From positions 1 to 38,780 of the forward strand of contig JAUNPJ010000021.1 of NCBI GenBank assembly GCA_030536755.1: a DNA stretch of 38,780 bases, read 5' to 3'. The stretch comes from Eubacteriales bacterium (GTDB taxonomy: Bacteria > Bacillota > Clostridia > Lachnospirales > Lachnospiraceae). Under the pieces are notes generated by a model that was not told where the DNA came from, made no database searches, and saw only the letters and a program-made list of their open reading frames with translations. A program made the position numbers and the translations under genes. Positions 14,546-29,689 of the stretch are shown piece after piece (within the stretch, counting starts at the first letter, position 1; the number at the start of each line of letters is the position of its first letter).

Positions 14546-15409
14546 CTACATATCTATCAGATTCATATAGTGCTTGTATAATGCAGAAAATCGGCCTGAA
14601 TATTTCTTCTTCCATGGTTTTTGTTTACCGCAAAAATGAAGAAAAACTGTATTTTGCATGACCCAATCCAAATCAAATTTTCCTTCACTTTTGAGAAGAT
14701 AAGCGGAATAATAGCGGGCATCATAATTCCAGATTTCATCTGCTATCTGCACAGTATAGGAACCATATAGACAATTAAATACATCTTGGTCTGGCAAGAT
14801 AAGTTGGTTTGCTTTGTCAATGACACAACGATAAATTTCTTCCGCCTTTGTAATTGTCCGTGCCCTTTTCAAATCAATCAACAAAACACCTGTATTAAAA
14901 TAATCGTGTTCGGTGCCTAACCTTGCCTTGTTTACTTCATCAATAAACTCATCAAGTACAAAACCATGAGAAGCTGCCGCAAAGGAATAATTTTCCAACT
15001 GCATTTCCCACAATGAACGTATAGAATTAATAACCAATATATCCGGGTCAAGATATAGCACTCGCTCCAATCCATTTGGAAGCATAAGCGGTGCCATCAT
15101 TCGGTAATACATCTCTTGTGGATATTGCTTAGAAACCGGAGCATTTTTGAACAGCTCTCTGTCAATCTCTATGGCTGTCAAGGTTATCTTCTGCTTACTG
15201 CAATACTCTGTCAGGGCAAACAAATCTTCCTGGGGGATTGCACTATGCAAAAGCCAAATATGAAATGTTTCCATAGGATTACTGATCGCCAGTGATTTAA
15301 TCATTACCCGAAATGGATTGATATAATTTTTATCAAAGGTAACCAGAATGTTAATTTTGTTATCTGTCATTTTTTCAGACGATAAATAGTTATTCGTTTT
15401 CATCGTCAT
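14546..15409 (-). CDS. Family 8 glycosyltransferase
   Basis: A 287-residue retaining GT8 enzyme. Visible signatures are NILVTFDKNY near 20, the DxD motif at D121-P-D123 (LYLDPDILV), FNTGVLLIDL (about 171-180) and the HFCGKQKPW element (258-266) that closes the nucleotide-sugar site. No signal peptide or transmembrane segment is seen, so it acts at the cytosolic face, probably on a lipid or cell-wall intermediate with UDP-glucose or UDP-galactose. It overlaps the preceding gene by 20 bases and is the last gene of the membrane/glycolipid operon. Start 15409 has AAGG at 8 bases; the internal ATG 15370 is less likely. Confidence 0.9.
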   Translation of the reverse strand: MTMKTNNYLSSEKMTDNKINILVTFDKNYINPFRVMIKSLAISNPMETFHIWLLHSAIPQEDLFALTEYCSKQKITLTAIEIDRELFKNAPVSKQYPQEMYYRMMAPLMLPNGLERVLYLDPDILVINSIRSLWEMQLENYSFAAASHGFVLDEFIDEVNKARLGTEHDYFNTGVLLIDLKRARTITKAEEIYRCVIDKANQLILPDQDVFNCLYGSYTVQIADEIWNYDARYYSAYLLKSEGKFDLDWVMQNTVFLHFCGKQKPWKKKYSGRFSALYKHYMNLIDM

Positions 15410-15809
15410 TATTTTTACCTTCTTCTGCCGGTTTGGTTTTTATTAAGAGGATATTACTCCCCTGTGCTACTTCCACGGTTTTTTCACTTTTTTCGGAATC
15501 CTCATTAGCTGGCTCCATATCATTATCTGTAAATCCGTCTGTCTTGTCCAACTCTGCCATAGGAGCAGCAGTTATAGTTTCCGCAGCTCTTTCTGCTGCT
15601 CTTTTTCTCGCCAGTTCTCTCCTGCGCTCCACATATTCTTTACTAAGAGTAACGGTATGTTTGACAGCCGTATCTGTTACATCACTCGCTTTGGCAGACT
15701 CCGGTTCACAGTGCTTCGTAGGTTCATGGAAGAATGTGTAAGCAGTCAATCCAGCAATTACAGATCCTGCTCCCAGCAAAAAATACTTCATACTTTTTTT
15801 CATAGTCAT
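15390..15809 (-). CDS. Membrane-anchored protein with charged tail
   Basis: A 139-residue protein starting at ATG 15809 (GAGGAAAG upstream; the frame extends further without support). It has one N-terminal membrane segment (YFLLGAGSVIAGLTAYTFF, about 7-25) followed by a highly charged, Glu/Lys/Arg/Ala-rich region (YVERRRELARKRAAERAAE) and an acidic tail. No domain is recognised. It could be a scaffold or a membrane-tethered adaptor for the glycosyltransferase whose gene it overlaps. The function is unknown. Confidence 0.7.
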   Translation of the reverse strand: MTMKKSMKYFLLGAGSVIAGLTAYTFFHEPTKHCEPESAKASDVTDTAVKHTVTLSKEYVERRRELARKRAAERAAETITAAPMAELDKTDGFTDNDMEPANEDSEKSEKTVEVAQGSNILLIKTKPAEEGKNNDDENE

Positions 15810-15899
15810 CTTTCCTCTCTTTCTGTTAAATAAATGTTGCGTTATGTCCATGTACTTTCATCCGCAAAAACAATATTGAAGAAGATCTTTTTTCCTTTT

Positions 15900-16877
15900 T
15901 CAATCAAAGCTGTTCCAAAATTGTATTACTTCCTGCTCATATGCATCCCGGTTTACCACATAGCTCATTCCATGACCTGCTCCTGGAACAACGAGTAATC
16001 GTTTCGGTGCGGTACAAGCCTTATAGTTTTCATATGTCATTTCGATAGGAACAAAATCATCATCTGTTCCATGAATAAAAAGCACGGGAACTTTACATTT
16101 TGCCATTGCCGAAGTACAAGAATAATCTTTAGGGCCAATCTGAATTTTTCGCCGGCAAATATCCGCAGCAATTTCTCCCTGAATATCATCATAGTAAAGA
16201 CGCAGATTATTCTCCATAACATATTTCCAAATAGCGTTTGGAGAAGTATATCCGCAGTCGGCAATAATACCGTGTACATTTTCTGGCAGATCAAAGCCTG
16301 CTGTCATTAACACAGTTGATGCCCCCATAGAGACACCACATAAATAAATTGGCATATTATCATATCCCTGTTGATTGACCCAACGAATCCAATCAAGACA
16401 GTCATATCTTTCCAACAAGCCAAACCCCATGTAGTTTCCACCGCTATTGTTTTGCCCCCGTTGTTCGACAAATAGAACACAACAACCACTTTGAAACAGA
16501 AAATCAGAGATCAAACCGAAATCCTTAACCCATGATGAACGCCAACCGTGCATAGCAATAATAATTCTCTTAGCATTCTCACAAGAATGCCAGTGACCAA
16601 CCAATCTTTCGCCATCATGTGCTGTGATTTCTATAGCTTCACACCCTGCGTTTTCAAGTTTCTGAGCTGCCTGCTCCTGAATTTCAAAAAATTCTTTCAT
16701 CACAGGTTTACCGGAAAGTTGCTCCCTTGATGCATTCATAATTTCCGGTTCTTCACGATCCAGGGCAACACTAACTAATTTCTTTGTAATCAAAGAAGCT
16801 ACTGTTCCTGCCGTGATAATCGTACCTGCTGTAATTCCTGCTCCAATCAAAGCATTTTTAATGTGTTTATTCATCAT
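15900..16877 (-). CDS. Membrane-anchored alpha/beta hydrolase
   Basis: A 325-residue serine hydrolase. An N-terminal hydrophobic segment (about 8-36) anchors it. The alpha/beta-hydrolase fold shows IIAMHGWRSS (oxyanion region), nucleophile S183 in GVSMGAS, acid D273 in HGTDDDFVP and H302 in GAGHGM. It resembles YqkD/YfhR-type hydrolases, often lipases, esterases or acyl hydrolases. In this operon it would suit deacylation or remodelling of a lipid. AAGGAG lies 6 bases upstream of the tandem ATG start. Confidence 0.88.
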   Translation of the reverse strand: MMNKHIKNALIGAGITAGTIITAGTVASLITKKLVSVALDREEPEIMNASREQLSGKPVMKEFFEIQEQAAQKLENAGCEAIEITAHDGERLVGHWHSCENAKRIIIAMHGWRSSWVKDFGLISDFLFQSGCCVLFVEQRGQNNSGGNYMGFGLLERYDCLDWIRWVNQQGYDNMPIYLCGVSMGASTVLMTAGFDLPENVHGIIADCGYTSPNAIWKYVMENNLRLYYDDIQGEIAADICRRKIQIGPKDYSCTSAMAKCKVPVLFIHGTDDDFVPIEMTYENYKACTAPKRLLVVPGAGHGMSYVVNRDAYEQEVIQFWNSFD

Positions 16878-16910
16878 TCATGACTCCTTTCATCTCGGTT
16901 TATATTGCTA

Positions 16911-17573
16911 TCATACTTGCGATACAGCCAATACTCCTTCGGCTTCTATAAAACTCCAATTGCAGAATTTCTTTTGCATCCATTCATCAGGATATTTTCC
17001 ATCAATAAATCGACTTATCCTGTTTAGTGGTGCTTTCTTTTTATGCCGATTTGCCCACCGTATAATGCATATTGCTGTCCATGTGAGATTGACGATCATA
17101 AATAGTGACAAACCGATGCACGCTATTTCCCATGCAGTTCCGGTCATATGAGAAAGAATACCTTTTAATGGTTGATACAAAACCTGATCAAAGAAAAGTC
17201 CCAACGCTCCCCACATGATTGTCATTTTCGGGCTGATAAGTCCCTGTATATTCAGAAAATGATTTCTGTAATCCCATGCCTTCATACCGATTCCGATGCG
17301 TATCACCAACCCACAAAGATATTCCACCAATGAACCAATCAAGGCAAGTATTACAATACGCAACGACCTGTCAAGTCGGTTAAATAGCATTTCTCCTATG
17401 TAAAGCATCACAATGCCGATTCCATAAACGATATTGAACGGCCCCCAGAGAGCAACTACATGGGTTTGCCATTTACCGTATCGGAATTTACACCATGTTC
17501 CTTCTACGATAACACCTAAAACATTTCCGAACATAAACAACCAAAATAATTCTTGATAACTTAAAGTCAACAT
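16911..17573 (-). CDS. CmpB-like putative ABC-transporter permease (PF06541)
   Basis: A 220-residue integral membrane protein with about five hydrophobic segments. Typical family signatures are visible: ELFWLFMFGNVLGVIVEGTW at the start, VALWGPFNIVYGIG, and EYLCGLVIRIGIGMKAWDYR. No ATP-binding partner is encoded here. The family name is historical and true transport is unproven. ATG 17573 with AGAGG upstream is chosen; an ATG at 17597 would overlap the AI-2E gene's end and lacks a good site. It is the middle gene of the envelope operon. Confidence 0.8.
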   Translation of the reverse strand: MLTLSYQELFWLFMFGNVLGVIVEGTWCKFRYGKWQTHVVALWGPFNIVYGIGIVMLYIGEMLFNRLDRSLRIVILALIGSLVEYLCGLVIRIGIGMKAWDYRNHFLNIQGLISPKMTIMWGALGLFFDQVLYQPLKGILSHMTGTAWEIACIGLSLFMIVNLTWTAICIIRWANRHKKKAPLNRISRFIDGKYPDEWMQKKFCNWSFIEAEGVLAVSQV

Positions 17574-17586
17574 AGTTATACATCCT

Positions 17587-18717
17587 CTATTCAGCATTGA
17601 TTTCTGTATTCTTGCAAAGCCCTCTCTTTTTAGCGCCGTCTTTCAACAGGTCAACGATAACGGAAGCAAGCGGAATGAAGAACAGAATTCCAAGAATGCC
17701 AAATAGCTTTCCGCCAATCATTGCTGCAACCAGCGTATACAGGGGTGGCAATCCTACAGAGCCGCCAACTACTCTCGGATAGATGAACTGATTTTCTCCA
17801 AACTGTACGACGAGGTACACAACCATGCACCGAATCGCAAGTGTTGGATCGATAATCAGTGTAAGAAAAACACTGACTACACAGGAAATAAAAGCACCAA
17901 CATAAGGGATAATTGCGCAAACCGCCGTAAGAACGCCAACCAAACTTGCATATGGAAGTCTGAATATCACAAATGCAAAACTCATTAAAGTGCCTAATAT
18001 CATAGCTTCTCCACATTGTCCCGATAAAAAGTTGGCAAAGGATGTGTTGAACATCCGGAAAATTTGCGAAATTTTATCTGCCCACGAAGGTTTCAAATAA
18101 GAACGCAGAAATTTATTTGAATGCCGGTGTATCCGCTCTTTATCCAAAACCATATAAATGCCGATTATAAATCCGAATGCAGCGTTCGTAACTATACTGA
18201 CAGCCGAGGAGACGGTATCTACAATACTTGCAAGAACCATATCCACATGGTCGGATACGGTGTTCAGCATTTGATCCAGATTAATGTCAGCAAGGAATTT
18301 TTCCAGCCATTCGGCATTAATATTATGTGCGTCGAGATATTGCGTCCACTCCGGGATACGAGTTTCGAGCATGGAAGTAAGGCTTTGCACCGAACGAATC
18401 ATTTCGGGAATAAGCAAAGTAAATACAAGAGAAAGCACCAACACAATGCAAATCAATGTAAGTATAAAGCTGGCAATACGATACGCTTTGCCAGACGACT
18501 GCTTTTTAGATTTCGAAAATAACTTTCTGAGCCGTTTTTCTATCCTGGACATTGGTACATTGATAAATAAAGCCAATATTCCGCCTACAACAATAGGAAG
18601 AATTAACCCGATAATCTTTTTTGCAAAGCCGATAATTGTGGTAAGATGCATTAACGCTGCAAACAAACATATTCCGATAATAACTATCAGCAAATTTTCC
18701 TTTGATTTTTTATCCAT
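17587..18717 (-). CDS. AI-2E family transporter (PF01594)
   Basis: A 376-residue polytopic membrane protein with the family's layout: two N-terminal membrane helices (about 8-52) with the LPIVVGGILALFINVP signature, a large soluble loop (about 95-195), then a bundle of helices. It ends with QFGENQFIYPRVVGGSVGLP, a hallmark of the family, and a final helix pair. Members have been linked to autoinducer-2 or ion/solute export; the substrate is not predictable. The ATG overlaps the stop of a possible small upstream frame (ATGGATAA). The ribosome binding site AAGGAG is at 9 bases. Confidence 0.92.
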   Translation of the reverse strand: MDKKSKENLLIVIIGICLFAALMHLTTIIGFAKKIIGLILPIVVGGILALFINVPMSRIEKRLRKLFSKSKKQSSGKAYRIASFILTLICIVLVLSLVFTLLIPEMIRSVQSLTSMLETRIPEWTQYLDAHNINAEWLEKFLADINLDQMLNTVSDHVDMVLASIVDTVSSAVSIVTNAAFGFIIGIYMVLDKERIHRHSNKFLRSYLKPSWADKISQIFRMFNTSFANFLSGQCGEAMILGTLMSFAFVIFRLPYASLVGVLTAVCAIIPYVGAFISCVVSVFLTLIIDPTLAIRCMVVYLVVQFGENQFIYPRVVGGSVGLPPLYTLVAAMIGGKLFGILGILFFIPLASVIVDLLKDGAKKRGLCKNTEINAE

Positions 18718-18850
18718 ATCTCTTTTCTCCTTGCCTGCTAAAGAGCCTTGTCCATAAGGCTTTCAGCAAAATTTCAGATGCCGGAAACCTTTTAAAAACA
18801 CTGCTGTTTCTAATGAACTTTGAAAATTGTTTCCAGGTATCACAATACAT
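18710..18850 (-). CDS. Possible small protein coupled to the AI-2E gene
   Basis: A 46-residue frame fills most of the 152-base gap between the PAP2 and AI-2E genes. It ends in an 8-base overlap (ATGGATAA) with the AI-2E start, a common coupling arrangement. The sequence is basic and aromatic (FSKFIRNSSVFKRFPASE, LLKALWTRLF), without a known domain. The start is uncertain: GAGGTG is about 13 bases away, and the frame stays open into the PAP2 gene. It could be a real small membrane-associated peptide, a decayed gene tail or chance. Confidence 0.35.
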   Translation of the reverse strand: MYCDTWKQFSKFIRNSSVFKRFPASEILLKALWTRLFSRQGEKRYG

Positions 18851-18869
18851 CAAAGTTCGAAACACCTCA

Positions 18870-19556
18870 TTAAACTGATTTATTCTTTGTGCAATTCCAT
18901 TTTTCACTCCCGTATACAACTACATAGGCAAAAACACAAATTGGAATTGCCGCAAGTATATCCAACACAGAGTGCTGTTTTAGAAATACAGTCGATACTG
19001 ATATAAGGAAAGCGGTAATAGTAAAAACAATCCTCCAACCTTTGGTGCTGAAATGCTTACTGTGCCAAGCACAGAGCATAACGGCCACAGAACCAATGAC
19101 ATGAATGGACGGGCAAACATTCGTGTTCGTATCAAACTGATAAAATCCAGTCATAAATCGAGTGAATACATTATCCCGTTCAAACAGGACTGGCCGAAGC
19201 TCCTGACAGTTCGGGAAAAGAATGTAAATAATCATTGCCGCTGAGTAAGATATAATGATAAATTTCATTAGTTTTCTGAAAGAATCCGTATCAAATAAAA
19301 GAGTATAAATATGAATGCCTACCAGAAATACAAACCAAAATAAGTAGGGAATCAAAAAATACTCGCAAAATGGGATGGCATCATCCAACGAACAGGAAAT
19401 TGGATAATAACTTTCCCTGATCCAAAGCCGTTCGACAGTTAAAAACATCAGTCCGAAAAGCGGCCAGAAGATCAGCATTTTTAAATGCGAAAACTCAGGG
19501 GTATTTAATTTGCTCAACCGAAATTTTCGGTAGTCTACCATTGCTCTTTTTTGCAT
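18870..19556 (-). CDS. PAP2-family phosphatase / phosphotransferase
   Basis: A 228-residue membrane protein with about six hydrophobic helices. The PAP2 active-site motifs are present: CPSIH (148-152) and the S188...H195-x3-D199 element (STVFLKQHSVLD). The first phosphatase motif (KX6RP) is weak, with RPVLFERDN as the nearest segment, as in inositol-phosphoceramide-synthase-like members. It probably dephosphorylates a lipid phosphate such as phosphatidic acid, PGP or undecaprenyl-PP, or transfers a head group. AGGAG is 10 bases upstream. In the operon it could supply diacylglycerol for the glycosyltransferase encoded upstream. Confidence 0.87.
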   Translation of the reverse strand: MQKRAMVDYRKFRLSKLNTPEFSHLKMLIFWPLFGLMFLTVERLWIRESYYPISCSLDDAIPFCEYFLIPYLFWFVFLVGIHIYTLLFDTDSFRKLMKFIIISYSAAMIIYILFPNCQELRPVLFERDNVFTRFMTGFYQFDTNTNVCPSIHVIGSVAVMLCAWHSKHFSTKGWRIVFTITAFLISVSTVFLKQHSVLDILAAIPICVFAYVVVYGSEKWNCTKNKSV

Positions 19557-19601
19557 TTGTTTCTTGCTCCTGTAATCAATAATGATTTATATAACAGTCA
19601 C

Positions 19602-20453
19602 CTATGTACGCTTTGGAATCGGCAGAGCTTTTGAAAGAATAAAAGACTGCAAAATCCCCAAAACAGATTGATAAATCCAGTAAACACCAAGCATTCCCGA
19701 AAATGAAAATGTCATCCAAAGTGTCATCAGAGGCATCATAATCTCCATAAAGTTCATAGGTGATTTACCTTGTACTTCTCCATTACCCACAGGTGCGGTA
19801 GAAACATTGTTCCATTTACGCATCAGATAAGAAGAAAGCCATGTAAGCGCCGCTGCAAGGATGGGGACGAGCCAAAGAATCGAAAATTCGGAAAAGCTCG
19901 GAGTTTGGGCGAGGTTCGCTCCAAAAAGTGTAAAGTCGGGAAGTTTTGTAAGATCAATCCCCGCAAACGCATCAACGCCAAGCTCCTGAATATTTGCAAC
20001 CAATCCTATTTCATCCAGCGCAGGTGTTATCCCTGCGGCTGTGATAATATCCTTAATCTTTGTAATTTCTTCGCCAGTCAACTTGCAGATATAGGAAAGC
20101 GGGCTTCGTATCACCTTATAAAGAAATGTGATAACCGGGAGTTGGAGAAACATAGTCAGACAACCCGATAGTGGGCGAAAGCCTTCCTTTTGCTGAAGCT
20201 CCATAATTTCCTGCTGCTGTTTCTGTATGGAGGCTTCGTCTGTTTTCCCTCGATACTTTGCCTGAATCTTCTCCATTTTAGGGGCAATCTTTGCCATAAT
20301 AATCTGACTTTTTTGCTGTTTTATGGCTGCTGGAAGAAACAACAGCTTAAACAGCAATGCATACAAAAACAAGGCGAGGGCATATTTTCCGAAGAATATA
20401 TTACTGAACCATGAAAGCATAGTTCCGAGCAGGTTATAAATCCAATCTAACAT
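19602..20453 (-). CDS. yidC: YidC/Oxa1-family membrane protein insertase
   Basis: A 283-residue protein with the Gram-positive YidC layout. A first core helix (about 24-44, LFLYALLFKLLFLPAAIKQQ) is followed by the cytosolic helical hairpin (AKIAPKMEKIQAKYRGK). Further core helices are near 100-120 (LPVITFLYKVIRSPL), 190-210 and 240-275. The hydrophilic-groove position usually held by Arg seems to be Lys here (ALLFKLL). There is no lipoprotein signal, unlike SpoIIIJ. It is probably an accessory copy beyond the housekeeping YidC. It may insert the operon's membrane proteins. Confidence 0.9.
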   Translation of the reverse strand: MLDWIYNLLGTMLSWFSNIFFGKYALALFLYALLFKLLFLPAAIKQQKSQIIMAKIAPKMEKIQAKYRGKTDEASIQKQQQEIMELQQKEGFRPLSGCLTMFLQLPVITFLYKVIRSPLSYICKLTGEEITKIKDIITAAGITPALDEIGLVANIQELGVDAFAGIDLTKLPDFTLFGANLAQTPSFSEFSILWLVPILAAALTWLSSYLMRKWNNVSTAPVGNGEVQGKSPMNFMEIMMPLMTLWMTFSFSGMLGVYWIYQSVLGILQSFILSKALPIPKRT

Positions 20454-20467
20454 TCGCTTCTTTCCTT

Positions 20468-21574
20468 TTACTGTAATTCTTTATATATGTACTCCGCTCC
20501 ATTTGGCGGCTTGTGTTCCTGCAAACGTTTTTCCATATCATGTCTTTCTGTAGGAGAACGGAGCAGTTCCAAACTTTTGGCGGCAAGCTTTTTAGGTGTA
20601 TCGGCGGTAATGGCTGCACCCATACTCAAGAAGAAATCCATATTGTACTGTTCACACCCTGCAACAGCGTTGATGAATGCCATAGGCAAACATTTGACAG
20701 CCGCTTCGGTTACGCTGATCCCGCCCGGCTTTGTTAAATATAGGTCGGCGGAATCCATATAAAGCGGCATTTGATTGGTGTAACCTATTACATGGATATG
20801 AGGCTTCCGTTTGTATCTCCGGTCTAACCGCTTAAACAGCCGTTTGTTTGTTCCGCAGATTATGGACACTTCCATATCCTCTGTCATTTCTTTTGAGATC
20901 TGTTTCATCATCTTTGCAATAGGGCCGCATCCCATACTGCCGCACATAACAAGAAGATGTTTGCTATTAGAACGGATACCCAGTAACCGTTTGGCATCCG
21001 CCTTTTCTGTATGCTTATAAAAATTCCGGCGAACAGGAATTCCCGCAGCGATAACGCTTTCCCTTTGAATGCCCATGCTGACAAAATCATCGGTAAAACT
21101 ATCATCAGCGATAAAATATTTCTGTAAATCACAGGCATTTGCACCAGGATAACAGGTATAATCAGTGGCAATAAAAGCGGTTTGTATTGACAAAGGACGC
21201 TTTCGCAGCATATGTGTCAACATCATTGCGGAAAAGATATGTGTGCAGATAATGGTAGTGTAGTTACCCCCGGTAATGTACCGATACATACGGTCTGCAC
21301 CGGAGGTCAAGGCCTTGTATACAAGCGATCCCTCTTTGAATACTGCCGGATGTTTCTCGCTTTGCCGGTATCCCCACTGAAACAGCCAGGGCAAATGACG
21401 ATAAACAAAGCTATGTCCCCATGAAAGAAACTGGGAAATCCGTTTCCCGATAAAATCAAGGGAGTCCTGAATTTCACACTCAATATGCTGTTTCTTATAG
21501 TAATCCATCATTGCCTGCGCACAGGAGTTATGCCCTTGCCCCGTACTGCAGCTTAATATCAGAACTTTCTTCAT
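20468..21574 (-). CDS. MGDG-synthase/UgtP-like diacylglycerol glycosyltransferase
   Basis: A 368-residue GT-B (GT28-type) enzyme. The N-terminal MGDG-synthase domain starts LILSCSTGQGHNSCAQAM. It is followed by the PWLFQWGYR segment, and in the C-terminal half the UDP-sugar signature TKPGGISVTEA. It should transfer glucose or galactose from UDP-sugar to diacylglycerol at the cytosolic membrane face. ATG 21574 has AGGAG with a 7-base spacer; an in-frame start at 21613 has no site. It overlaps the upstream CrtO-like gene by 47 bases, indicating tight coupling of glycosylation and acylation. Confidence 0.88.
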   Translation of the reverse strand: MKKVLILSCSTGQGHNSCAQAMMDYYKKQHIECEIQDSLDFIGKRISQFLSWGHSFVYRHLPWLFQWGYRQSEKHPAVFKEGSLVYKALTSGADRMYRYITGGNYTTIICTHIFSAMMLTHMLRKRPLSIQTAFIATDYTCYPGANACDLQKYFIADDSFTDDFVSMGIQRESVIAAGIPVRRNFYKHTEKADAKRLLGIRSNSKHLLVMCGSMGCGPIAKMMKQISKEMTEDMEVSIICGTNKRLFKRLDRRYKRKPHIHVIGYTNQMPLYMDSADLYLTKPGGISVTEAAVKCLPMAFINAVAGCEQYNMDFFLSMGAAITADTPKKLAAKSLELLRSPTERHDMEKRLQEHKPPNGAEYIYKELQ

Positions 21575-22070
21575 AGGTAATCTCCTGTTTCTTGCTTTCA
21601 ACTGTAGTTTCACGAATCTGCAATCTTTTCAGCAACCGAACCAGTTTTGGACGGTTATATCGCTGAATCAGAATAAAGGGAATATTGCCGAGCAAATAAA
21701 GCACAAATAGAACCCAGCCGCCGATACCTTTCCATATCAGCAGACAGCCCAATCCCATGATACACAGCACGACATGGATGAACTCTGCAACACAGGTTTC
21801 CTGTACCATTCGTTCCATATTTTGAACATTCACTTGTTTTGGCAGTTTTTTTGCCGGCATAAGTGAGAAAAAAATTCTGCTCATATCTGGCAGCTTATTT
21901 TGCCATTTGCGGATTCTGATTTTGTTATAGATCTCTCCGTTTTTTTCAAATCCAAATGATATGTATGGAAAACGAAGATAGTGAAATTTCTTTGGCATTA
22001 ACCTCCCGACAAAAAAGAAACCGAAACTGATTATCACGAGATATAAAAAACATTTAAAAAATACATTCAT
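21528..22070 (-). CDS. CrtO-like glycosyl-acyltransferase, membrane protein
   Basis: A 180-residue membrane protein resembling staphylococcal CrtO (glycosyl-4,4'-diaponeurosporenoate acyltransferase, PF18927), the enzyme that acylates the sugar of staphyloxanthin. Shared landmarks are FEKNGEIYNK, RIRKWQNKLPDM, a central conserved AEFIH and the C-terminal NIPFILIQRYNRPKL. There are hydrophobic segments at about 3-23 and 100-135. No carotenoid genes are nearby, so the likely acceptor is the glycolipid made by the overlapping glycosyltransferase. It is the first gene of the nine-gene operon, downstream of a repeat-type operator. Confidence 0.78.
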   Translation of the reverse strand: MNVFFKCFLYLVIISFGFFFVGRLMPKKFHYLRFPYISFGFEKNGEIYNKIRIRKWQNKLPDMSRIFFSLMPAKKLPKQVNVQNMERMVQETCVAEFIHVVLCIMGLGCLLIWKGIGGWVLFVLYLLGNIPFILIQRYNRPKLVRLLKRLQIRETTVESKKQEITYEESSDIKLQYGARA

Positions 22071-22186
22071 CTCCGATCTGTCCTTTCATTTATCCATTTT
22101 GTTTCCTTATCATTTACCTTTTTATCTCTCCTTTGCGACAACCTTACCGTCTTTTCTGTTTTACATTCATATCCTAATTTTTCAGT

Positions 22187-22214
22187 TACAACTCAACCTC
22201 AACCCAATCTCAAC
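22187..22214 (-). promoter_or_regulatory. Triple direct-repeat operator A (response-regulator type)
   Basis: On the minus strand three half-sites at 11-base spacing: GTTGA-N6-GTTGA-N6-GTTGT. It lies about 120 bases upstream of the glycolipid operon. It matches operator B at 22 of 28 positions. The spacing equals that of SaeR sites (GTTAA-N6-GTTAA). Binding by the island's own OmpR-type regulator is inferred. Confidence 0.65.
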
Positions 22215-22225
22215 AATTCGTAACA

Positions 22226-22262
22226 AAAGAAAAGCGGCTGTTTTTTGCAAAACAGTCACTTA
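22226..22262 (-). terminator. Terminator of the MATE gene
   Basis: On the minus strand AAG-G-CTGTTTT-type arms fold around GCA with AAAACAG-C-CTT (two mismatches) and are followed by TTCTTTTG. It lies between the MATE stop and operator A. Confidence 0.65.
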
Positions 22263-22307
22263 TCTGAATTTCAAATGATTTTATGTAGTTGATTGCTTTA
22301 TGCATTC

Positions 22308-23663
22308 TTACAAATTCTGCATTGCTTTTCTAAACTGGAAGAAGAAAAGTATTATGGTAAAAATAACAGAAATGAAGTCAGCTATCGGTTCGGCTAAATA
22401 TACACCCATTGTCTTATTTGCTACTAAATGCGGGACGATATAAATCAGCGGAACAAGCAAAATGAATTTTCGCATAACAGCTACCATAATGGAAGCTGTT
22501 GCGTTTCCAAGCGAAGTAAATGTCATCTGACAAGCAATCTGCGCTCCGAATATGCCAAGACCGGCGCAATAAATACGCAAAGCCCAGCTCGTGAACTCAA
22601 TTAACTCAGGGTTCGGTACAAAAATTCTGGCAAACATCTGAGGGATTAACATAACCAAAGACCAAACCACCATTGTATATCCAAGCGTGCAGGCAATCAG
22701 CAACTTTACCGTTTTTTTTACTCGATCGCCATTTTTTGCACCGTAGTTATAGCTTGTAATTGGCTGTGCCCCTTGCCCCAGTCCCTGCGCAGGAAGCGAG
22801 GAGAACTGCATAACACTGGTCAGAATCGTCATAGCTCCAACGGCTACATCTCCGCCATATTTCAGAAGCGATGAATTAAAGCAAATTAAAATGACACTTT
22901 CACTGGCCTGCATAATAAAAGAGGACATTCCAAGTGAAAAGGACGGCAGAATAGTCTTTGTTTCCAGCAGGAGATTCTGACGCCGAATGCGGAGAATCGT
23001 TTTCTTGCCTGTCAAAAAACGGAGCACATAGAAAGTTGATACTGCCTGGGAAATAATCGTAGCAAGAGCAGCTCCTTTGACTCCCATATGAAATCCATAA
23101 ATAAATAACGGATCAAGTGCAATATTACAAACTGCTCCAATCAAGACACTGAACATACCGGCGGTTGCAAAGCCCTGTGCGGTAATGAATGCAGTCATGC
23201 CAAGCGTAAGCTGTACGAAAATCGTTCCCATGGCATAGATATTCATATAATCGGTAGCAAATCCGATTGTATTCTCACTTGCGCCAAAAGCCAGCAGAAG
23301 CGGACGATTAAAAATCAGCAACACGGCTGTAAGTATTACAGAAATCAAAATCTGCAAAGTAAGACTGTTTCCTAAAATCTTTTCGGCTTCCTTCTGATTG
23401 CCTCGTCCCATTGCCATTGACGCTCTCGGAGCCCCACCTGTACTAACAAAAGCGGAGAATGCTGACACAATCATAATTACTGACATACAAACGCCAACTC
23501 CTGTGAGTGCCAGATCGCCGTTTTCCGGCATATGACCTATGTATACTCGATCCACAAGATTATAAAGGAGATTGACAATCTGTGCTGCAATAGCAGGCAG
23601 AGATAGTTTCAAAAGAAGCTTTCTAACCGGCTCCGTTCCTAAAAAATTATTATTCTTTTCCAA
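22308..23663 (-). CDS. MATE-family multidrug exporter
   Basis: A 451-residue protein with twelve predicted membrane helices in two six-helix halves, MepA-like. Signatures include the N-terminal PVRKLLLKLSLPAIAAQ, GDLALTGVGV, the ASMAMGRGNQKEAE loop and GLGQGAQPITSYNYGA in the second half. It exports cationic drugs or metabolites using H+ or Na+. The start is a TTG with GGAGG 9 bases upstream. It lies downstream of repeat operator B and so may be co-regulated with the glycolipid operon. Confidence 0.92.
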   Translation of the reverse strand: MEKNNNFLGTEPVRKLLLKLSLPAIAAQIVNLLYNLVDRVYIGHMPENGDLALTGVGVCMSVIMIVSAFSAFVSTGGAPRASMAMGRGNQKEAEKILGNSLTLQILISVILTAVLLIFNRPLLLAFGASENTIGFATDYMNIYAMGTIFVQLTLGMTAFITAQGFATAGMFSVLIGAVCNIALDPLFIYGFHMGVKGAALATIISQAVSTFYVLRFLTGKKTILRIRRQNLLLETKTILPSFSLGMSSFIMQASESVILICFNSSLLKYGGDVAVGAMTILTSVMQFSSLPAQGLGQGAQPITSYNYGAKNGDRVKKTVKLLIACTLGYTMVVWSLVMLIPQMFARIFVPNPELIEFTSWALRIYCAGLGIFGAQIACQMTFTSLGNATASIMVAVMRKFILLVPLIYIVPHLVANKTMGVYLAEPIADFISVIFTIILFFFQFRKAMQNL

Positions 23664-23732
23664 AACAGTGTGCCTCCAAACCGATAATGACTTTGCTCTT
23701 AGTGTATTGAATTTCCATTGTATAGTCTTAAC

Positions 23733-23760
23733 TACAACTGAATATCAACTAAACCTCAAC
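23733..23760 (-). promoter_or_regulatory. Triple direct-repeat operator B (response-regulator type)
   Basis: Minus-strand GTTGA-N6-GTTGA-N6-GTTGT, about 70 bases upstream of the MATE start and in the same orientation as operator A. TTGATA with 18-base spacing to TATACA overlaps its central repeat as a candidate promoter. The distal repeat falls inside the 32-base palindrome at 23747-23778. Confidence 0.65.
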
Positions 23761-23778
23761 AATTGTTGAGGTTTAGTT
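23747..23778. repeat. Perfect 32-bp palindrome at the rsmD stop
   Basis: The 16-base half AACTAAACCTCAACAA is followed directly by its exact complement, with no loop. It includes the stop codon of the rsmD-like gene and part of operator B. No T tract follows. It could be a transcription end, a dimeric operator or both. Confidence 0.85.
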
Positions 23779-24366
23779 TGAGTTCTCGTTATTTAAAACC
23801 GAAGTCTGTGCCTCTACTCGCCTGAAAAAATGCACGCTTGATATTCCATAATGTTTTAACTTGAATCTACGGAGCACTCCTATTTTTTCAGGCATTTCCT
23901 TTTCTCGCCTTGTACGAATCGCAATACACCCGTCTTTATCAAAAATCCCTGCGTTTGACAAGAACTCCATAACAGGCAAAAAAATTTCATCTACTGTAAA
24001 CGGCGGATCGAGATAGATGATGTCAAACACATATCCGTTTTTTGCAAGCCATTCAATCCGTTTGAAAACATCATCCTGATACACTTCATATCCGTCAATA
24101 AATTTACAGTTGGCAAGATTTTTCTTTATCACGTTAATTGCTTTTCGGTCTTTCTCTACAAACACAACTTTTTTAGCGCCTCGACTCATTGCCTCAATCC
24201 CAATGCTCCCACTGCCGGAAAACAAATCAAGGAAGCAGGAATCAGCCATTTGCATTTGCCACATGCTGAATAGTGCCTCCTTGATTTTTGCTGTAACCGG
24301 TCTTGTGTTTATCCCATTCGGAGCAATTAAGGCATGTCCTTTGGCTTTCCCGGCTATTACACGCAA
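23773..24366 (-). CDS. rsmD: RsmD-like 16S rRNA (guanine-N2) methyltransferase
   Basis: A 197-residue SAM-dependent methyltransferase. RVIAGKAKGHALIAP and TRPVTAKIKEALF are the RsmD N-terminus. The SAM motif is FLDLFSGSGSIGIEAMSRGA, and the catalytic DPPF at 120-123 replaces the common DPPY. RsmD methylates G966 of 16S rRNA in the P-site region. It starts at a TTG with GGAGG 8 bases upstream, 16 bases after the mutS2-like gene. As ICE cargo it is probably an additional copy; whether it modifies G966 or another base is open. Confidence 0.9.
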   Translation of the reverse strand: MRVIAGKAKGHALIAPNGINTRPVTAKIKEALFSMWQMQMADSCFLDLFSGSGSIGIEAMSRGAKKVVFVEKDRKAINVIKKNLANCKFIDGYEVYQDDVFKRIEWLAKNGYVFDIIYLDPPFTVDEIFLPVMEFLSNAGIFDKDGCIAIRTRREKEMPEKIGVLRRFKLKHYGISSVHFFRRVEAQTSVLNNENSN

Positions 24367-24382
24367 AACCTATCCCTCCATA

Positions 24383-25936
24383 TTATGTCATTTCACGGTC
24401 ATTTTCAAGAACTACCTTTGCCTCATCAATAATTGCGTCATCCAATCCCAGCCGCTTTGAAATTGCAAAAGCATTGCTTGCACCAACTGCGCCTATCATC
24501 AGGCGGTAGGTGGGACTCAATGTCTGCACATCAAATTCACAGCAGGCATTTTGAACGCCATCGGTTGTGAGCGCAAAGGTTTTGATTTGTGCGTAGTGGG
24601 TCGTGGCAAGGGTTCTAATCTTCTTTCTGTGCAGATTAGAAAGAATTGCGACTGCAAGGGCCGCCCCTTCGTCCGGGTCTGTACCGGAGCCCAATTCATC
24701 AATCAGCACTAGCGAATCCTTATCCGCAATACCGAGAATGCGGATAATATTCGTCATATGTGCGGAAAAAGTGCTTAGGCTTTGGGCGATACTCTGTTCA
24801 TCGCCAATATCCGCAAATACTTCCTTAAATACAGAAAGTTCCGAACCCTCAGAAGCAGGAATATGAAGTCCCGACTGTCCCATAAGAGTCATCAACCCTG
24901 TGGTTTTCATTGTTAATGTCTTTCCTCCGGTATTCGGACCGGTAATTACCAACAAATCATAATCACGCCCGATTTCCAATGTTGTGGGCACAACTTTTTC
25001 TTGATCAAGCAGCGGATGGCGAGCCTGCTTCAGACTAATAATCTTTTTCGTGTTGAATATCGGCTCGGAAGCGTCCATTTGCTGCGAAAGATAGGCTTTG
25101 GCAAAAATAAAATCAAGTGCAGTTAAAATCGCATAATTCTTTTTGACGAATTTAAGTTGAGCCTTTACCATATCAGTCAGTTCACCGAGCACAACCGCAA
25201 TCTCAATTTTCTCCTGATACTGATAATCTTGAAGTTTGCTTGCAGCGGTCGCTACGCTTTTGGGTTCTATAAATACCGTTCCGCCGCTGCCGGACTGTCC
25301 CTGTACTGTACCGGGAACCTTGCTGCGACAGGCATACTTTACGGCAAGGCAGTAAGAACCGTTTCTTTCTCTGATAGAGGTATCCGACAGATAATTTCTG
25401 TATTTACTGCTGATCATCATACGAAGCTGTCCCTGAATACTGTCCTCCGCCGTTTTTATGTTGCGGCGGGCCTTTTCAAGTCCTGCACTGGCTGAATCAT
25501 GCAAATCAGTGTCGGAACGGACGCAGCGCTTAATTTCATCTTGTACTTTGGTAAGCGGTGAAAGCTGGTTGAAGCGGGCATCAAGTAAATCCCGTTCTTC
25601 TTCCGGTATTTCACGGCATCCGTATTTTTTGGCTTTTGTTGCTGCGTCCAGCAAATCCCATATGCGCAGAAGCTCACCAGCAGTCAATGATTCGCCGTTT
25701 TCGAGTTTTTCAAGTACCCGGTCAAGTTTTGTTACCTTGCTGAAAGAAATCTGCGCTCCATGTTTGATACGCTCTTTCGCTGCAGAGGTTTCTCCCTGCA
25801 AATGCTGTATTTTCTCGATTTCGGTTTCAGGAAAAAGGCTTCTGCACAATTCTCTACCTGGTTCAGAAGATGCACATTTTTCAAGCCTCTCCTGTATTTT
25901 ACCAAATTCGAGTATTTCATAAATTTTCTGATTCAT
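24383..25936 (-). CDS. MutS2-like ATPase lacking the Smr/KOW C-terminus
   Basis: A 517-residue MutS2-type ABC ATPase. The core/lever domain (about 1-290) is followed by the ATPase: Walker A GPNTGGKT (333-340), Walker B with signature DELGSGTDPDEGAALA (413-428) and H-loop THYAQIKTF (446-454). MutS2 is usually about 780 residues, with a nuclease Smr domain and a coiled/KOW region after the ATPase. This protein stops cleanly after IIDEAKVVLENDREMT. In Bacillus, MutS2 splits collided ribosomes; clamp-like ATPase action without cleavage is inferred here. It is translated from an ATG with GGAG, directly after marR and before rsmD. Confidence 0.88.
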   Translation of the reverse strand: MNQKIYEILEFGKIQERLEKCASSEPGRELCRSLFPETEIEKIQHLQGETSAAKERIKHGAQISFSKVTKLDRVLEKLENGESLTAGELLRIWDLLDAATKAKKYGCREIPEEERDLLDARFNQLSPLTKVQDEIKRCVRSDTDLHDSASAGLEKARRNIKTAEDSIQGQLRMMISSKYRNYLSDTSIRERNGSYCLAVKYACRSKVPGTVQGQSGSGGTVFIEPKSVATAASKLQDYQYQEKIEIAVVLGELTDMVKAQLKFVKKNYAILTALDFIFAKAYLSQQMDASEPIFNTKKIISLKQARHPLLDQEKVVPTTLEIGRDYDLLVITGPNTGGKTLTMKTTGLMTLMGQSGLHIPASEGSELSVFKEVFADIGDEQSIAQSLSTFSAHMTNIIRILGIADKDSLVLIDELGSGTDPDEGAALAVAILSNLHRKKIRTLATTHYAQIKTFALTTDGVQNACCEFDVQTLSPTYRLMIGAVGASNAFAISKRLGLDDAIIDEAKVVLENDREMT

Positions 25937-25953
25937 CGTTTATTCTCCACTTC

Positions 25954-26397
25954 TTATTCATCTGAAAATTCTCTTTTAAGATTGGCAATATATTTTTCAA
26001 GCATGGAGATACAAATCTGCACTTCCTGCGGTTCTGTTTCTTCCATTGCTTTCTGTTCCGCTTCAAAAATCCACATAACTCTGTTTTTGCCGTATGCGAT
26101 GCCTTCTTTTGACAAACGGATAACCTTGCGGTTCCTTGTTCCCGGTATATGCTCTAACAGGACAAAGCCTTTTTTTACCATACCTGAAATAAGAGAGTTG
26201 ACCGTCTGTTTGGGAAGAGAAAGCATTTCGCAAAGATCCTGTTGCGTGTATTCCTCATCGGAATTAAGCAGAGTAGACCAAATACAGATTTCACCATCTG
26301 CGATACCGGATTTTCCGGCAGCGATATGATAGAGTGCATTCATCTCCTTGATTTTCTGATTGATTATGTCGATTTGATTTTTTATATAGTTATCCAC
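25954..26397 (-). CDS. MarR-family regulator 1
   Basis: A 147-residue winged-helix repressor. The DNA-binding domain is at about 35-105: QQDLCEMLSLPKQTVNSLIS is the recognition HTH and HIPGTRNRKVIRLSKEG the wing. Helical dimerisation ends flank it. It starts at GTG with AAGGAGG 7 bases upstream. It shares SLPKQTVN and IPGTRNRKVIR with the second MarR at 29040-29495, so the two are recent paralogues. It leads the marR-mutS2-rsmD operon behind a consensus promoter carrying two near-identical palindromes, the expected sign of autorepression. Confidence 0.92.
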   Translation of the reverse strand: MDNYIKNQIDIINQKIKEMNALYHIAAGKSGIADGEICIWSTLLNSDEEYTQQDLCEMLSLPKQTVNSLISGMVKKGFVLLEHIPGTRNRKVIRLSKEGIAYGKNRVMWIFEAEQKAMEETEPQEVQICISMLEKYIANLKREFSDE

Positions 26398-26416
26398 ACG
26401 AAAACCTCCTTATAAA

Positions 26417-26428
26417 TCCGAGTTCGGA
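26417..26428. promoter_or_regulatory. MarR1 operator, downstream copy
   Basis: TCCGA-GT-TCGGA lies between the -10 box and the marR1 start, centred 31 bases (about three helical turns) from the second copy. Confidence 0.7.
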
Positions 26429-26440
26429 TGTTTGTTATAT

Positions 26441-26469
26441 ATTATAGTCCGAGCTCGGATGTTTGTCAA
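26441..26469 (-). promoter_or_regulatory. Consensus promoter of marR1-mutS2-rsmD with embedded operator
   Basis: On the minus strand TTGACA (26464-26469), a 17-base spacer and TATAAT (26441-26446) match the sigma-A consensus exactly. The spacer contains the perfect palindrome TCCGAGCTCGGA (26448-26459). A repressor bound there would directly block RNA polymerase. Confidence 0.88.
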
Positions 26470-26497
26470 GGCAACATCAGATCGTCAACAAAGTCAT

Positions 26498-26534
26498 CAA
26501 AAAAGGGCATGACTACCAAACAGCAGCCTGCCCT
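26498..26534 (-). terminator. Terminator of the two-component operon
   Basis: Minus-strand AGGGCA...TGCCCT with a loop of about 24 bases is followed by TTTTTTG, 38 bases after the sensor kinase stop. The stem is short, so strength is uncertain. Confidence 0.55.
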
Positions 26535-26571
26535 CAATATAAATACTCTTTCTGATTGAATTTCCGTATGA

Positions 26572-27612
26572 TCATGACAATATCGGCAACACCACAGTAA
26601 ACTTACAGCCACCCTCCTGGCAGTTCTCAACTTCAATATGTCCCTGATGAATGGAGACAATCCGATTAACTAATGCTAATCCAAGCCCATTGCCCTCATC
26701 CTTATGAGATGTATCTGACTGGTAAAATTTATCAAAAATTCTCTTCATATCTGTTTCAGAAATGCCGCACCCGCTATCTTGAACAGAAATCAGTACATTT
26801 TGCTCAGAGGCTTTTAAACATATTCGCAGACTGCCACCAACCGGATTGAATTTTATGGCATTTCCAATCAAATTCATCCACACATGGAACAGCAATGACT
26901 CGTTTGCCGTATAAGTAACGACTTCTAAATCAGCGGCAAGGTCTATTTCTCTTTCTGCCCATTTGGGTTCTAATACAACGATGGCCTGACGAATCTGTTC
27001 ATCTAACCGAAATGGTCTTGGTTTTGCAGGAATCGCCTGATTTTCGATTTTAGAGAGCAGAAGAATATTGCTTACCAAATCAGATAATCGCTTTGTGCTA
27101 AACAAAATTTTCTCCGTACACTCTTTTTGATTCAGAGTAAGTACAGTATCGCCTTGCAAAAGCGTGGCATACCCTTCAATAGCGGCAAGCGGCGTTTTAA
27201 ATTCATGTGATACATTGGATACAAAATCGGTTTTCAAAGTTTCTGTAGCAGACAATTCTTGAACCATTAAGTTAAAATCCCTATATAGATTCTGCACCTC
27301 ATCAATTTTACTATCGGAAGTCAAGGTGACAGCAAAATCGCCCGATGCAACCTTGCTCATGGCTTTACTCAACGCACTGATAGGTGCAAGAACCTTCCGG
27401 TAAAGAAAAGCAGTTACAACGCCGCCCATCACAATACTGAGTATAACCGTATAAACAGCTTCTGGTATCTGAACGGAAAAATGGAAAAAACGATGCAAAA
27501 GTGCAGAAATACAGGCAGAAATGATCGTTACCCCGGCAAATACGAGAAGATTCATCAAAATAAAATACAAGTTTATACTAAAACTCCACTCACGAAATTT
27601 TTTCTTTTTCAT
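26572..27612 (-). CDS. Sensor histidine kinase with short extracellular loop
   Basis: A 346-residue kinase. TM1 is at about 13-38 and TM2 at about 52-71, joined by only about 13 residues, the layout of intramembrane-sensing kinases such as SaeS and BceS. HAMP is at about 73-125. The phosphoacceptor is H136 in NVSHEFKTPLAAIEGY. The ATPase domain shows LIGNAIKF (N box), DSGCGI (G1) and GNGLGLALV (G2). It overlaps the response regulator gene by 4 bases (ATGA), so the two are made together. The signal is inferred to be membrane perturbation, for example antimicrobial peptides. Confidence 0.92.
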   Translation of the reverse strand: MKKKKFREWSFSINLYFILMNLLVFAGVTIISACISALLHRFFHFSVQIPEAVYTVILSIVMGGVVTAFLYRKVLAPISALSKAMSKVASGDFAVTLTSDSKIDEVQNLYRDFNLMVQELSATETLKTDFVSNVSHEFKTPLAAIEGYATLLQGDTVLTLNQKECTEKILFSTKRLSDLVSNILLLSKIENQAIPAKPRPFRLDEQIRQAIVVLEPKWAEREIDLAADLEVVTYTANESLLFHVWMNLIGNAIKFNPVGGSLRICLKASEQNVLISVQDSGCGISETDMKRIFDKFYQSDTSHKDEGNGLGLALVNRIVSIHQGHIEVENCQEGGCKFTVVLPILS

Positions 27613-28280
27613 CGCCTTACTACCTTATATCCCACACCACGAATCGTTACAATTTGAAAATCGGCGTTATCCTTGAATCGTTCTCTTAGCCTTGCTATAT
27701 GCACATCTACAGTGTGTGTATCGGTATCGGCATCATAACCCCAAATGTCGTCCATAATCTGCTGCCTTGTAAAAATACGACCGGGAGAAGAAGTCATTTT
27801 ATATAGCAACAGGAATTCCTTTTGAGGAAGAACCTGTGCTCCATTCATACTGAGCACCGTCAAGGAATCTGCCAAAAGCTCTGTGTTCCCGATCACCTGC
27901 CTACGGTCTGTAATCATCTGTGCACGCCGAAGCAAAGCACCCACACGCAAAACCATTTCATTTACATTAACTGGCTTTACCATGTAATCATCCGAGCCGG
28001 AAAGAAAGCCCAGTTGCATATCCTCGAAAGCATCTTTGGCTGTAATCATAAGAACAGGGATCTGATAATTTGCCTCTCTGAGCGAGCGTACCAAAGCATA
28101 TCCGTCCATGACAGGCATCATAATATCGGATATAATCAAATCAACATAATCAAGTTCAAGTGCAGCTAAGGCTTCCTCTCCGTTCTCTACACCACGAACA
28201 GCATAGCCATTTTGTGTTAATACCCGCTGAAAAAGCATTCTAAGCTCACGGTCATCTTCTGCTATCAGTATTTTAAACAT
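27609..28280 (-). CDS. OmpR/PhoB-family response regulator
   Basis: A 223-residue regulator. The receiver domain is at about 1-118 with acidic pocket E8-D9-D10, phosphoacceptor D52 (ISDIMMP), T80 and K102 (VKPVN). The winged-helix DNA-binding domain is at about 130-222 with YDADTDTHTVDVHIARLRER as recognition helix and IRGVGYKVVRR at the end. GGAGG is 6 bases before the ATG. OmpR-type regulators bind direct repeats spaced one helical turn. The 11-base repeats upstream of the glycolipid operon and MATE are therefore good candidate targets. Confidence 0.93.
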   Translation of the reverse strand: MFKILIAEDDRELRMLFQRVLTQNGYAVRGVENGEEALAALELDYVDLIISDIMMPVMDGYALVRSLREANYQIPVLMITAKDAFEDMQLGFLSGSDDYMVKPVNVNEMVLRVGALLRRAQMITDRRQVIGNTELLADSLTVLSMNGAQVLPQKEFLLLYKMTSSPGRIFTRQQIMDDIWGYDADTDTHTVDVHIARLRERFKDNADFQIVTIRGVGYKVVRR

Positions 28281-28391
28281 TTTAAACCTCCGGTAACTTA
28301 TTTTTCATCGGTTACTATCAAATTCAAAAATGGGCTGCACGGTTCATATAGAACTTATGCGGCACCGTAAAGTAACTCGAATAACTTGTCT

Positions 28392-29000
28392 TTATTTCGC
28401 TGTACCCTCTGACTGTGGGGCATTGTTTTTGAGACTGTGCTTGAGTGCGTTCCAATTTCTCTGACCATACAGAACCAGCGAAATAATCATCATGGCCATA
28501 CAAATCACAATGCAAATATTAGAAATCATAGGAGGAATATCATGCCACACCACATGGAGAAGCATCATGCCATAGAGTAAGCAGGTGGCAACTTTACCAT
28601 GCCAGTCTGCCCCAGGTACTATCCCTACTTTCCTGATAACCTGAAATCCTGAAATACCCATACACAGTTCTTTGAACAACATTAAGACAATTGGTGCAAT
28701 CATAAGTGGAAAACGGGTTAATAAACAAAACAACATTGTTGCCTGCGTCAGCTTATCCGCAATCGGATCAAGTACCTTTCCCAAATCGCTTACCATATGA
28801 AACCGTCGTGCGATAAATCCATCTATAATGTCCGTCGCACCAGACAGCAGTAAAATATAGGCTGTCCACATGGAATTATGCTCAACACAATAAAGCCATA
28901 TCAGAAACGGAATCAGACAGAGGCGAAAAAAAGAAAGTATATTGGGAATCGTGAATATTTTATTTTGTGTATTGCCTTCTCGGCTTGTTTTATCGTTCAT
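28392..29000 (-). CDS. CDP-alcohol phosphatidyltransferase (PgsA-like)
   Basis: A 202-residue membrane enzyme. The family motif D-G-x2-A-R-x8-G-x3-D-x3-D is complete, beginning at about residue 60 (DGFIARR). About six hydrophobic helices follow the usual pattern, starting FTIPNILSFFRLCLIPF. It should displace CMP from CDP-diacylglycerol with an alcohol such as glycerol-3-phosphate, giving phosphatidylglycerolphosphate, or cardiolipin when the partner is PG. The PgsA/Cls subtype cannot be fixed by eye. It lies 39 bases after marR2. It fits the island's membrane lipid theme together with PAP2 and the glycosyltransferases. Confidence 0.88.
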   Translation of the reverse strand: MNDKTSREGNTQNKIFTIPNILSFFRLCLIPFLIWLYCVEHNSMWTAYILLLSGATDIIDGFIARRFHMVSDLGKVLDPIADKLTQATMLFCLLTRFPLMIAPIVLMLFKELCMGISGFQVIRKVGIVPGADWHGKVATCLLYGMMLLHVVWHDIPPMISNICIVICMAMMIISLVLYGQRNWNALKHSLKNNAPQSEGTAK

Positions 29001-29039: not shown

Positions 29040-29495
29040 TCATCGTTCCGGCATTCCATTAAGCAAAATATCCTTTAAAAATGTGATATACTTTTCCGTC
29101 AATCCTATGCACATTTCCCGTTCTTCTTCTGACATTCTCTCAAAGGAGTTTTTCTCAGCCCTATAGATTTTTGCGACTATGCTTTTACCGTATTCTTTGC
29201 CTTCTTCAGTTATCCGAATGACTTTACGATTCCGTGTGCCGGGAATAGCTTCCAAAACAAGAAAGCCTTTTTGGGACAGATTAGTGACAATAGTATTAAC
29301 TGTCTGCTTGGGTAAAGACCATAGATCACAAATATCCTGTTGGGAATACTCGCCCTCTAAAACAACTAAAGTATACCAAACCCAGAACTCATTATCAGAA
29401 ATCCCGGCTTTACTAGCTACACCATGATAGATTGCCGCAAGTTCTTTCACTTGTTGATTCATTTTTTCAAGCTGCCCCTTAATGTGTTCATTCAT
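29040..29495 (-). CDS. MarR-family regulator 2
   Basis: A 151-residue winged-helix repressor. The HTH is QQDICDLWSLPKQTVNTIVT and the wing AIPGTRNRKVIRITEEG. It is clearly paralogous to MarR1. Its promoter region at 29742-29770 has the same design with different operator sequence, so the two proteins may have separated specificities. It precedes the CDP-alcohol phosphatidyltransferase by 39 bases. An intervening fragment of a further marR gene (29534-29689) lies between this gene and its promoter. Confidence 0.92.
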   Translation of the reverse strand: MNEHIKGQLEKMNQQVKELAAIYHGVASKAGISDNEFWVWYTLVVLEGEYSQQDICDLWSLPKQTVNTIVTNLSQKGFLVLEAIPGTRNRKVIRITEEGKEYGKSIVAKIYRAEKNSFERMSEEEREMCIGLTEKYITFLKDILLNGMPER

Positions 29496-29533: not shown

Positions 29534-29689
29534 TTACATCCTCAAATTATGTTGTAAAATAAATGGACTACCATACCACACCCAAAATTCGCCTTCGGAA
29601 ATGCCGAGAGAAGAAACTGCACAGCGGCAAAGGTCAACAAAGTTTTTAAACGGGTGGGGTCGTTTCTTGGACTTATCAGAATAGATCAT
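29534..29689 (-). pseudogene. Truncated marR remnant
   Basis: A 51-residue frame with a plausible site (GGAAG) at its ATG. Its central part SSLGISEGEFWVWY closely matches SKAGISDNEFWVWYTL of MarR2, the segment just before the HTH. The N-terminal part and everything after this point are unrelated or missing: there is no HTH and no wing. It reads as the remains of a third marR copy between the promoter and marR2. It may now be only a leader peptide for the operon. Confidence 0.7.

Follow-up and report, generated by a model that had tools for sequence, protein, structure and literature searches.

Two matching intergenic repeats in a clostridial genome are probably operators through which a response regulator encoded nearby (27609-28280) would activate both a CrtO-MGDG glycolipid operon and the gene of a MATE exporter; the arrangement would represent a likely mobile island's own copy of an envelope-lipid regulon. 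The DNA in question, here called the window, is a stretch of 38,780 nucleotides from a Eubacteriales bacterium of the Lachnospiraceae (contig JAUNPJ010000021.1). Comparison of sequences shows the repeated motif, its fixed distance to a -10 element, its association with one clade of response regulators and its place before lipid genes. The genes on which the argument turns are the following.

14546..20453, minus strand: possible further operon members, encoding YidC, PAP2, an AI-2E transporter, a CmpB-like protein, an alpha/beta hydrolase, a small protein without NCBIfam match, and GT8
20468..21613, minus strand: MGDG-synthase-type glycosyltransferase (PF06925, 1.5e-15; matches to diglucosyl diacylglycerol synthase models stay under the cut-offs)
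21528..22070, minus strand: CrtO-family protein (glycosyl-diaponeurosporenoate acyltransferase family; PF18927, 4e-31), the first gene past the glycolipid operator
22308..23663, minus strand: MATE efflux transporter with a TTG start (PF01554, 1.8e-40; TIGR00797, 199.7 bits against a cut-off of 147.4)
25954-26397 and 29040-29495: MarR-family regulators
26572..27612, minus strand: histidine kinase with two hydrophobic segments, a short loop, HAMP, HisKA and HATPase_c (domain matches)
27609..28280, minus strand: OmpR/PhoB-family response regulator (PF00072 at 4-112, PF00486 at 151-219), the proposed binder of both operators
28392..29000, minus strand: PgsA/cardiolipin-synthase-type CDP-alcohol phosphatidyltransferase (PF01066, 1.1e-34), directly before the regulator gene

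Upstream of the MATE gene, on the same strand, stand rsmD, a mutS2-like gene, a MarR gene, the kinase, the regulator, the PgsA-type gene and the second MarR gene; the regulator gene is 4-6 kb from both repeats, and 4.5 kb separate the kinase from CrtO. Genes for a relaxase, for a large protein combining SNF2 and helicase domains and for a CcrB-like serine recombinase also lie in the window, so that a mobile island is likely here. The model that best matches the large recombinase (9921-11615) is CcrB, at 212.7 bits and so far under its cut-off of 900. Scans for tRNAs, Rfam families and terminators returned nothing, and plasmid records held no match to positions 20468-28400. The MutS2-like frame (24383-25936), between the MarR and rsmD genes, covers positions 1-516 of a MutS2 model 790 positions long, its C-terminal part being absent.

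The two repeats, with their probable promoter elements, are laid out as follows.

22188..22214, minus strand: putative operator of the CrtO-MGDG operon (half-sites 22210-22214, 22199-22203, 22188-22192)
22171..22176, minus strand: probable -10 of the CrtO-MGDG promoter, TAGGAT
23734..23760, minus strand: putative operator of the MATE gene (half-sites 23756-23760, 23745-23749, 23734-23738)
23717..23722, minus strand: probable -10 of the MATE promoter, TACAAT
23765..23769, minus strand: inverted fourth half-site TCAAC, part of a perfect palindrome and present upstream of the MATE site only

A recount bears out the original prediction that 22187-22214 and 23733-23760 agree at 22 of 28 bases, a match that widens to 26 of 32 (81%; repeat family D2). 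As it had also proposed, the minus strand of each carries GTTGA-N6-GTTGA-N6-GTTGT with no mismatch, giving four GTTGA and two GTTGT half-sites in all, at an 11-bp period within each site, and each stands upstream of a gene on the minus strand (the CrtO-like frame from 22070 and the MATE frame from 23663). Both sites fall in intergenic DNA. The whole-genome scan suggested with that prediction found the exact pattern twice in 3.84 Mb, both times in the window, and 300 order-1 Markov copies of the window contained no exact match; a shuffle figure that counts matches at up to 3 mismatches is irrelevant to the chance of exact ones. We claim no third site in this genome: allowing 2 mismatches adds two matches (four for the motif, four for a reversed-pattern control), and allowing 3 adds five further matches against five in the control. 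The reversed pattern proved a poor control, as A often precedes GTTGA and true sites, the MATE site itself included, match it; it was dropped and shuffles took its place.

In each window site TAnnAT begins 17 bases past the start of the third repeat. The same distance recurs among relatives of the regulator, in 23 matches chosen by the repeats alone, with no regard to TAnnnT (the 25 matches of the close-regulator loci described below, less two identical ones): TAnnnT stands at offset 17 in 20 of 23, and at other offsets from 6 to 27 in 0-3 of 23. In the three exceptions the site had been read one repeat too early. The window's two sites and these 20 matches thus appear to share a PhoB-type promoter layout, in which the repeats occupy the -35 region and the distance to the -10 is fixed. 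A second feature, likewise unused in choosing the matches, is an inverted half-site four bases before the first repeat (T22 C21 A22 A22 C19 of 23). The original description of three direct repeats stands, with the correction that most relatives' sites add a fourth, inverted half-site. At the MATE site it falls within a 32-bp perfect palindrome (23747-23778; I2) that spans part of the operator; the glycolipid site is not palindromic and has TTACG in place of TCAAC. In three relatives' loci, sites on opposite strands overlap around a common palindromic core, each with its own -10 as in divergent promoters (L010:623-628 and 9871-9876, L013:5059-5064 and 8305-8310, L022:9713-9718).

The association with the regulator was examined in the best 80 loci among the regulator relatives listed, fetched by regulator similarity alone and without use of the motif; 25 carry a regulator 65-77% identical to that of the window and 55 one at most 60% identical. 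With at most 1 mismatch, the 14-base repeat pattern gave 25 matches in 13 of the 25 close-regulator loci and 2 matches in 1 of the 55 distant ones, and the reversed pattern, which overlaps the true motif, 12 matches in 10 of 25 and 1 in 1 of 55. A 52-column matrix was then built from 21 sites of the close-regulator loci, picked by repeats plus -10 and including no window site. It scores the MATE site at 47.3 and the glycolipid site at 28.4, against a best of 12.9 in 1.4 Mb of Markov sequence. When each tested locus was excluded from the matrix (the near-twins L010 and L013 together), a score of at least 18 was reached by 20 of the 25 close-regulator loci and 1 of the 55 distant ones, the best of 200 shuffled loci being 11.3; the cut-off was chosen after the scores were known, L029 (18.6) is barely above it, and at 20 the count is 19 of 25. 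The original prediction had asked whether the repeats are conserved where the genes are, and for the regulator this holds. The sole distant locus (L030, 21.3) has a regulator 60% identical, and the runner-up scores 8.1; the five close-regulator loci without a site by this score are L012, L014, L019, L027 and L028.

Among 31 further, mostly short loci (L102-L132), seven score at least 18 (L102, L104, L105, L131, L132, L127 and L130); L104 is the same place as in L008, a locus of Blautia schinkii, and L127 and L130 reach 21.2 and 18.4 despite regulators only 52-53% identical. Below 18 fall L103 (regulator 77%; 9.9), L106 (71%) and L107-L116 (65%). By eye, weaker repeats precede the regulator gene in L005, L012, L019 and L106, which are excluded from the counts. 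Two loci on viral contigs, with a regulator 71% identical, each have a site scoring 25.1 before it and are probably one element seen twice. The motif goes with a clade of regulators but not strictly with regulator identity, and the link is not sharp. A near-uniform regulator clade at 65-66% identity (L107-L116, L027, L028) occurs in many genera, and twice in one genome (G232). In genomes of this clade an ATTGA version of the operator plus -10 is found without mismatch in 3 of 11 and with at most 2 mismatches in 5 of 11, against 0 of 16 others and 0 in the control; the pattern was derived from matches in two of those same three genomes, and it is only suggestive that the ATTGA half-site belongs with the 65% clade.

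The exact pattern ending in GTTGT occurs, among 299 sampled genomes of the family, only in the window's own; as relatives' third repeat is often GTTGC or GTTGA, the repeats were scanned for together with the -10. Without mismatch this pattern is present in 3 of 299 genomes (the window's own, G030 and G263), all of which hold a regulator at least 74% identical; 6 of 299 hold one at least 70% identical. The remaining three gave a 2-mismatch site immediately ahead of the regulator gene (G212), a 3-mismatch match 210 bases before it, a class generally near the control level (G198), and no match on the contig carrying the regulator (G065). At most 1 mismatch brings the total to 9 genomes, six beyond the exact ones (G077, G259, G191, G204, G101, G041); since only G191 (65%) and G204 (52%) are on the list of regulator relatives, most one-mismatch genomes are put down to chance.

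What stands behind the sites was surveyed in L005-L084, L097, L100 and L105, which gave 40 site rows scoring at least 18. Nine precede the regulator gene itself. Eighteen precede a lipid or glycolipid gene: CDP-alcohol phosphatidyltransferase (5), PF01553 acyltransferase (4), CrtO (2), CdsA (PF01148; 2), diacylglycerol kinase (2), patatin (2) and GT8-VTT (1). Eight precede other genes (GNAT, MntP, radical SAM twice, ABC transporter, DegV, FtsH and HlyD) and five have no clear gene. Three of the lipid rows (L006 at 11783, L007 at 6988, L097 at 1544) were assigned by hand, the listed frame beginning inside or right after the site, and the start codon of the first is provisional; the near-twins L010 and L013 count CdsA, patatin and radical SAM twice. 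The glycolipid target is conserved in two of the three close-regulator places in which CrtO was seen: L100 and L005 share the order regulator-kinase-site-CrtO-MGDG, with the site directly before CrtO-MGDG, while in L016 the site precedes a PgsA-type gene and CrtO-MGDG comes later with none directly before CrtO. The window looks like the same unit with MarR, mutS2-like, rsmD and MATE genes put between kinase and CrtO.

The MATE gene fared differently. None of 19 fetched MATE relatives (63-68% identical; 32 of the 392 genomes gave a match) has a site, including two (in G263 and G550) that share a genome with a 75% identical regulator. A MATE relative (65-66%) does have a full or partial regulator-type site next to it in L016 and L020, but that site points away from it, and the matrix found nothing in the MATE direction (-2.4 and -4.3). 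MATE as a conserved target is unsupported; given these counts it looks like a local recruit to the regulon. The prediction that the island's regulator controls both transcription units accordingly finds support in sequence comparison for the link between regulator and sites and for the glycolipid genes, and not for the conservation of the MATE target. Nor does the window's regulator gene have a recognisable site upstream: the matrix finds only two matches of at least 10 in the window, and none before the PgsA-type gene.

That gene and a MarR gene lie upstream of the regulator gene, with MarR-type palindromes further upstream, and the supply of regulator may be under MarR control. One MarR gene is preceded by the palindrome pair TCCGAGCTCGGA (26448-26459) and TCCGAACTCGGA (26417-26428), the other by TCCTAACTCGGA (29749-29760) and TCCTAATTCGGA (29715-29726), each likely a MarR operator. 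Before the second MarR gene, a 51-residue open frame (29534-29689) resembles the first part of that gene's own product before it breaks off, apparently an earlier copy of the gene that has been disrupted.

Several other explanations of the two sites can be weighed against this evidence. The same regulator could act on the same sites as a repressor, its occupancy of the -35 region blocking polymerase until a change of phosphorylation relieves the block. The repeats do cover the -35 region, and OmpR-family regulators are capable of either activation or repression; yet a scan for sigma-70-type promoters made no call at either site, and the rigid repeat-to-minus-10 distance in 20 of 23 matches is what an activator touching polymerase needs, whereas repressors tolerate varied positions. 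We regard repression as unlikely. The binder may also be another response regulator of the host genome.

MarR proteins often control efflux pumps, and the MATE site lies within a 32-bp palindrome, so that one of the island's two MarR regulators might be the binder; the palindromes before the MarR genes are, however, of other sequence, on which ground this candidate was rejected, the glycolipid site is no palindrome, and the loci in which GTTGA sites turned up had been retrieved by similarity to the response regulator alone. A MarR binder is accordingly the least probable of these alternatives. Hardly better are the prospects of the view that insertion of the MATE gene left the two copies behind as direct repeats with no regulatory role. 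They flank that gene in direct orientation, 1546 bp apart, and its site-less relatives indicate that it was probably added here; but in relatives single sites with these half-sites, this spacing and this -10 distance stand before other genes, and an operator duplicated along with the insertion would equally suit activation by the island's regulator.

Activation of both units by that regulator would proceed as follows. The kinase, with hardly any part outside the membrane, probably senses membrane state; its two hydrophobic segments with a short loop suggest sensing in or at the membrane. The phosphorylated regulator would bind the tandem 11-bp half-sites in the -35 region and recruit RNA polymerase to the -10 at its fixed distance, switching on the MATE exporter and the CrtO-MGDG synthase operon, whose product would be membrane glycolipids. 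Activation rather than repression is proposed because the repeats lie in the -35 region at so rigid a distance from the -10.

A wider reading, whose chances we put just short of even, is that an unnamed clade of clostridial two-component systems acts as master activator of membrane-lipid synthesis, covering acyltransfer, CDP-DAG, PG or cardiolipin, DAG recycling and glycolipids. Its operator would comprise four half-sites, one inverted and three tandem, with a palindromic core able to serve two divergent promoters, as the matched opposite-strand site pairs of L010, L013 and L022 suggest; the island would have captured regulator, kinase and targets together and added MATE behind a copy of the operator. 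If this is true, a new host would acquire lipid remodelling and export as one response whose wiring does not depend on the host's own regulation. The findings also suggest a mobile island on which regulator, operators and targets travel together, so that the entire response might pass from one species to another.

The nearest relatives in kind are found in the OmpR/PhoB family, to which the regulator belongs by its receiver domain followed by a winged-helix Trans_reg_C domain, and whose tandem operators of direct half-sites about 11 bp apart are matched by both sites. It is not a PhoB equivalog (TIGR02154, 153.4 against a cut-off of 296.2 bits), and none of the 25 models listed, of 94, reaches its cut-off. 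The sections of PMC3798270 on these regulators give three to five repeats for ArcA, three or more for some PhoB and OmpR promoters, and direct polymerase recruitment for OmpR and PhoB; the position of the present repeats over the -35 region and their rigid distance to the -10 fit such recruitment. The sites seen here resemble the pho box and ArcA repeats of those sections in having direct half-sites one helical turn apart and at least three repeats. They differ in the half-site (GTTGA) and in the inverted half-site of most relatives' sites, and, whereas the ArcA sites described there have no conserved location or orientation, these keep a fixed distance to the -10.

The comparison with SaeR of Staphylococcus aureus made in the original prediction is right as to spacing, GTTAA-N6-GTTAA in the relevant part of PMC5083920 being one letter from GTTGA; it is a likeness of operator pattern. 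None of the window's six half-sites is GTTAA, and in that part of PMC5083920 two half-sites make a perfect site and the targets given are for the most part virulence factors, either secreted or at the cell surface, rather than lipid genes. Our survey of titles and abstract openings found no description of this GTTGA motif with its inverted element or of this lipid regulon.

The nearest studied case that we found is HexRK of Clostridioides difficile. In the portions of PMC10128005 drawn on here, HexRK is required for expression of the HexSDF operon, which has an MGDG-synthase-type gene, and HexRK-HexSDF mediates daptomycin and bacitracin resistance; those portions of the 2023 paper identify no signal for HexRK, and the words "motif" and "direct repeat" are absent from its main text. 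The likeness, one of description, is that a two-component system adjoins an MGDG-synthase-type operon in L100 and L005, and stands 4.5 kb from one in the window. HexSDF, as described there, pairs its synthase with a deacetylase and an MprF-like flippase, in contrast to CrtO, YidC and PAP2 here, and the subset of window genes scanned gave no deacetylase or MprF-like match. For a clostridial two-component family of which we found no description, these results provide a candidate binding motif, the layout of its promoters and a list of predicted target genes in membrane-lipid synthesis. The system is known in kind, since the passages on ArcA in PMC3798270 already place three or more repeats in the family; what is unusual is an operator with an inverted element joined to so orderly a lipid regulon.
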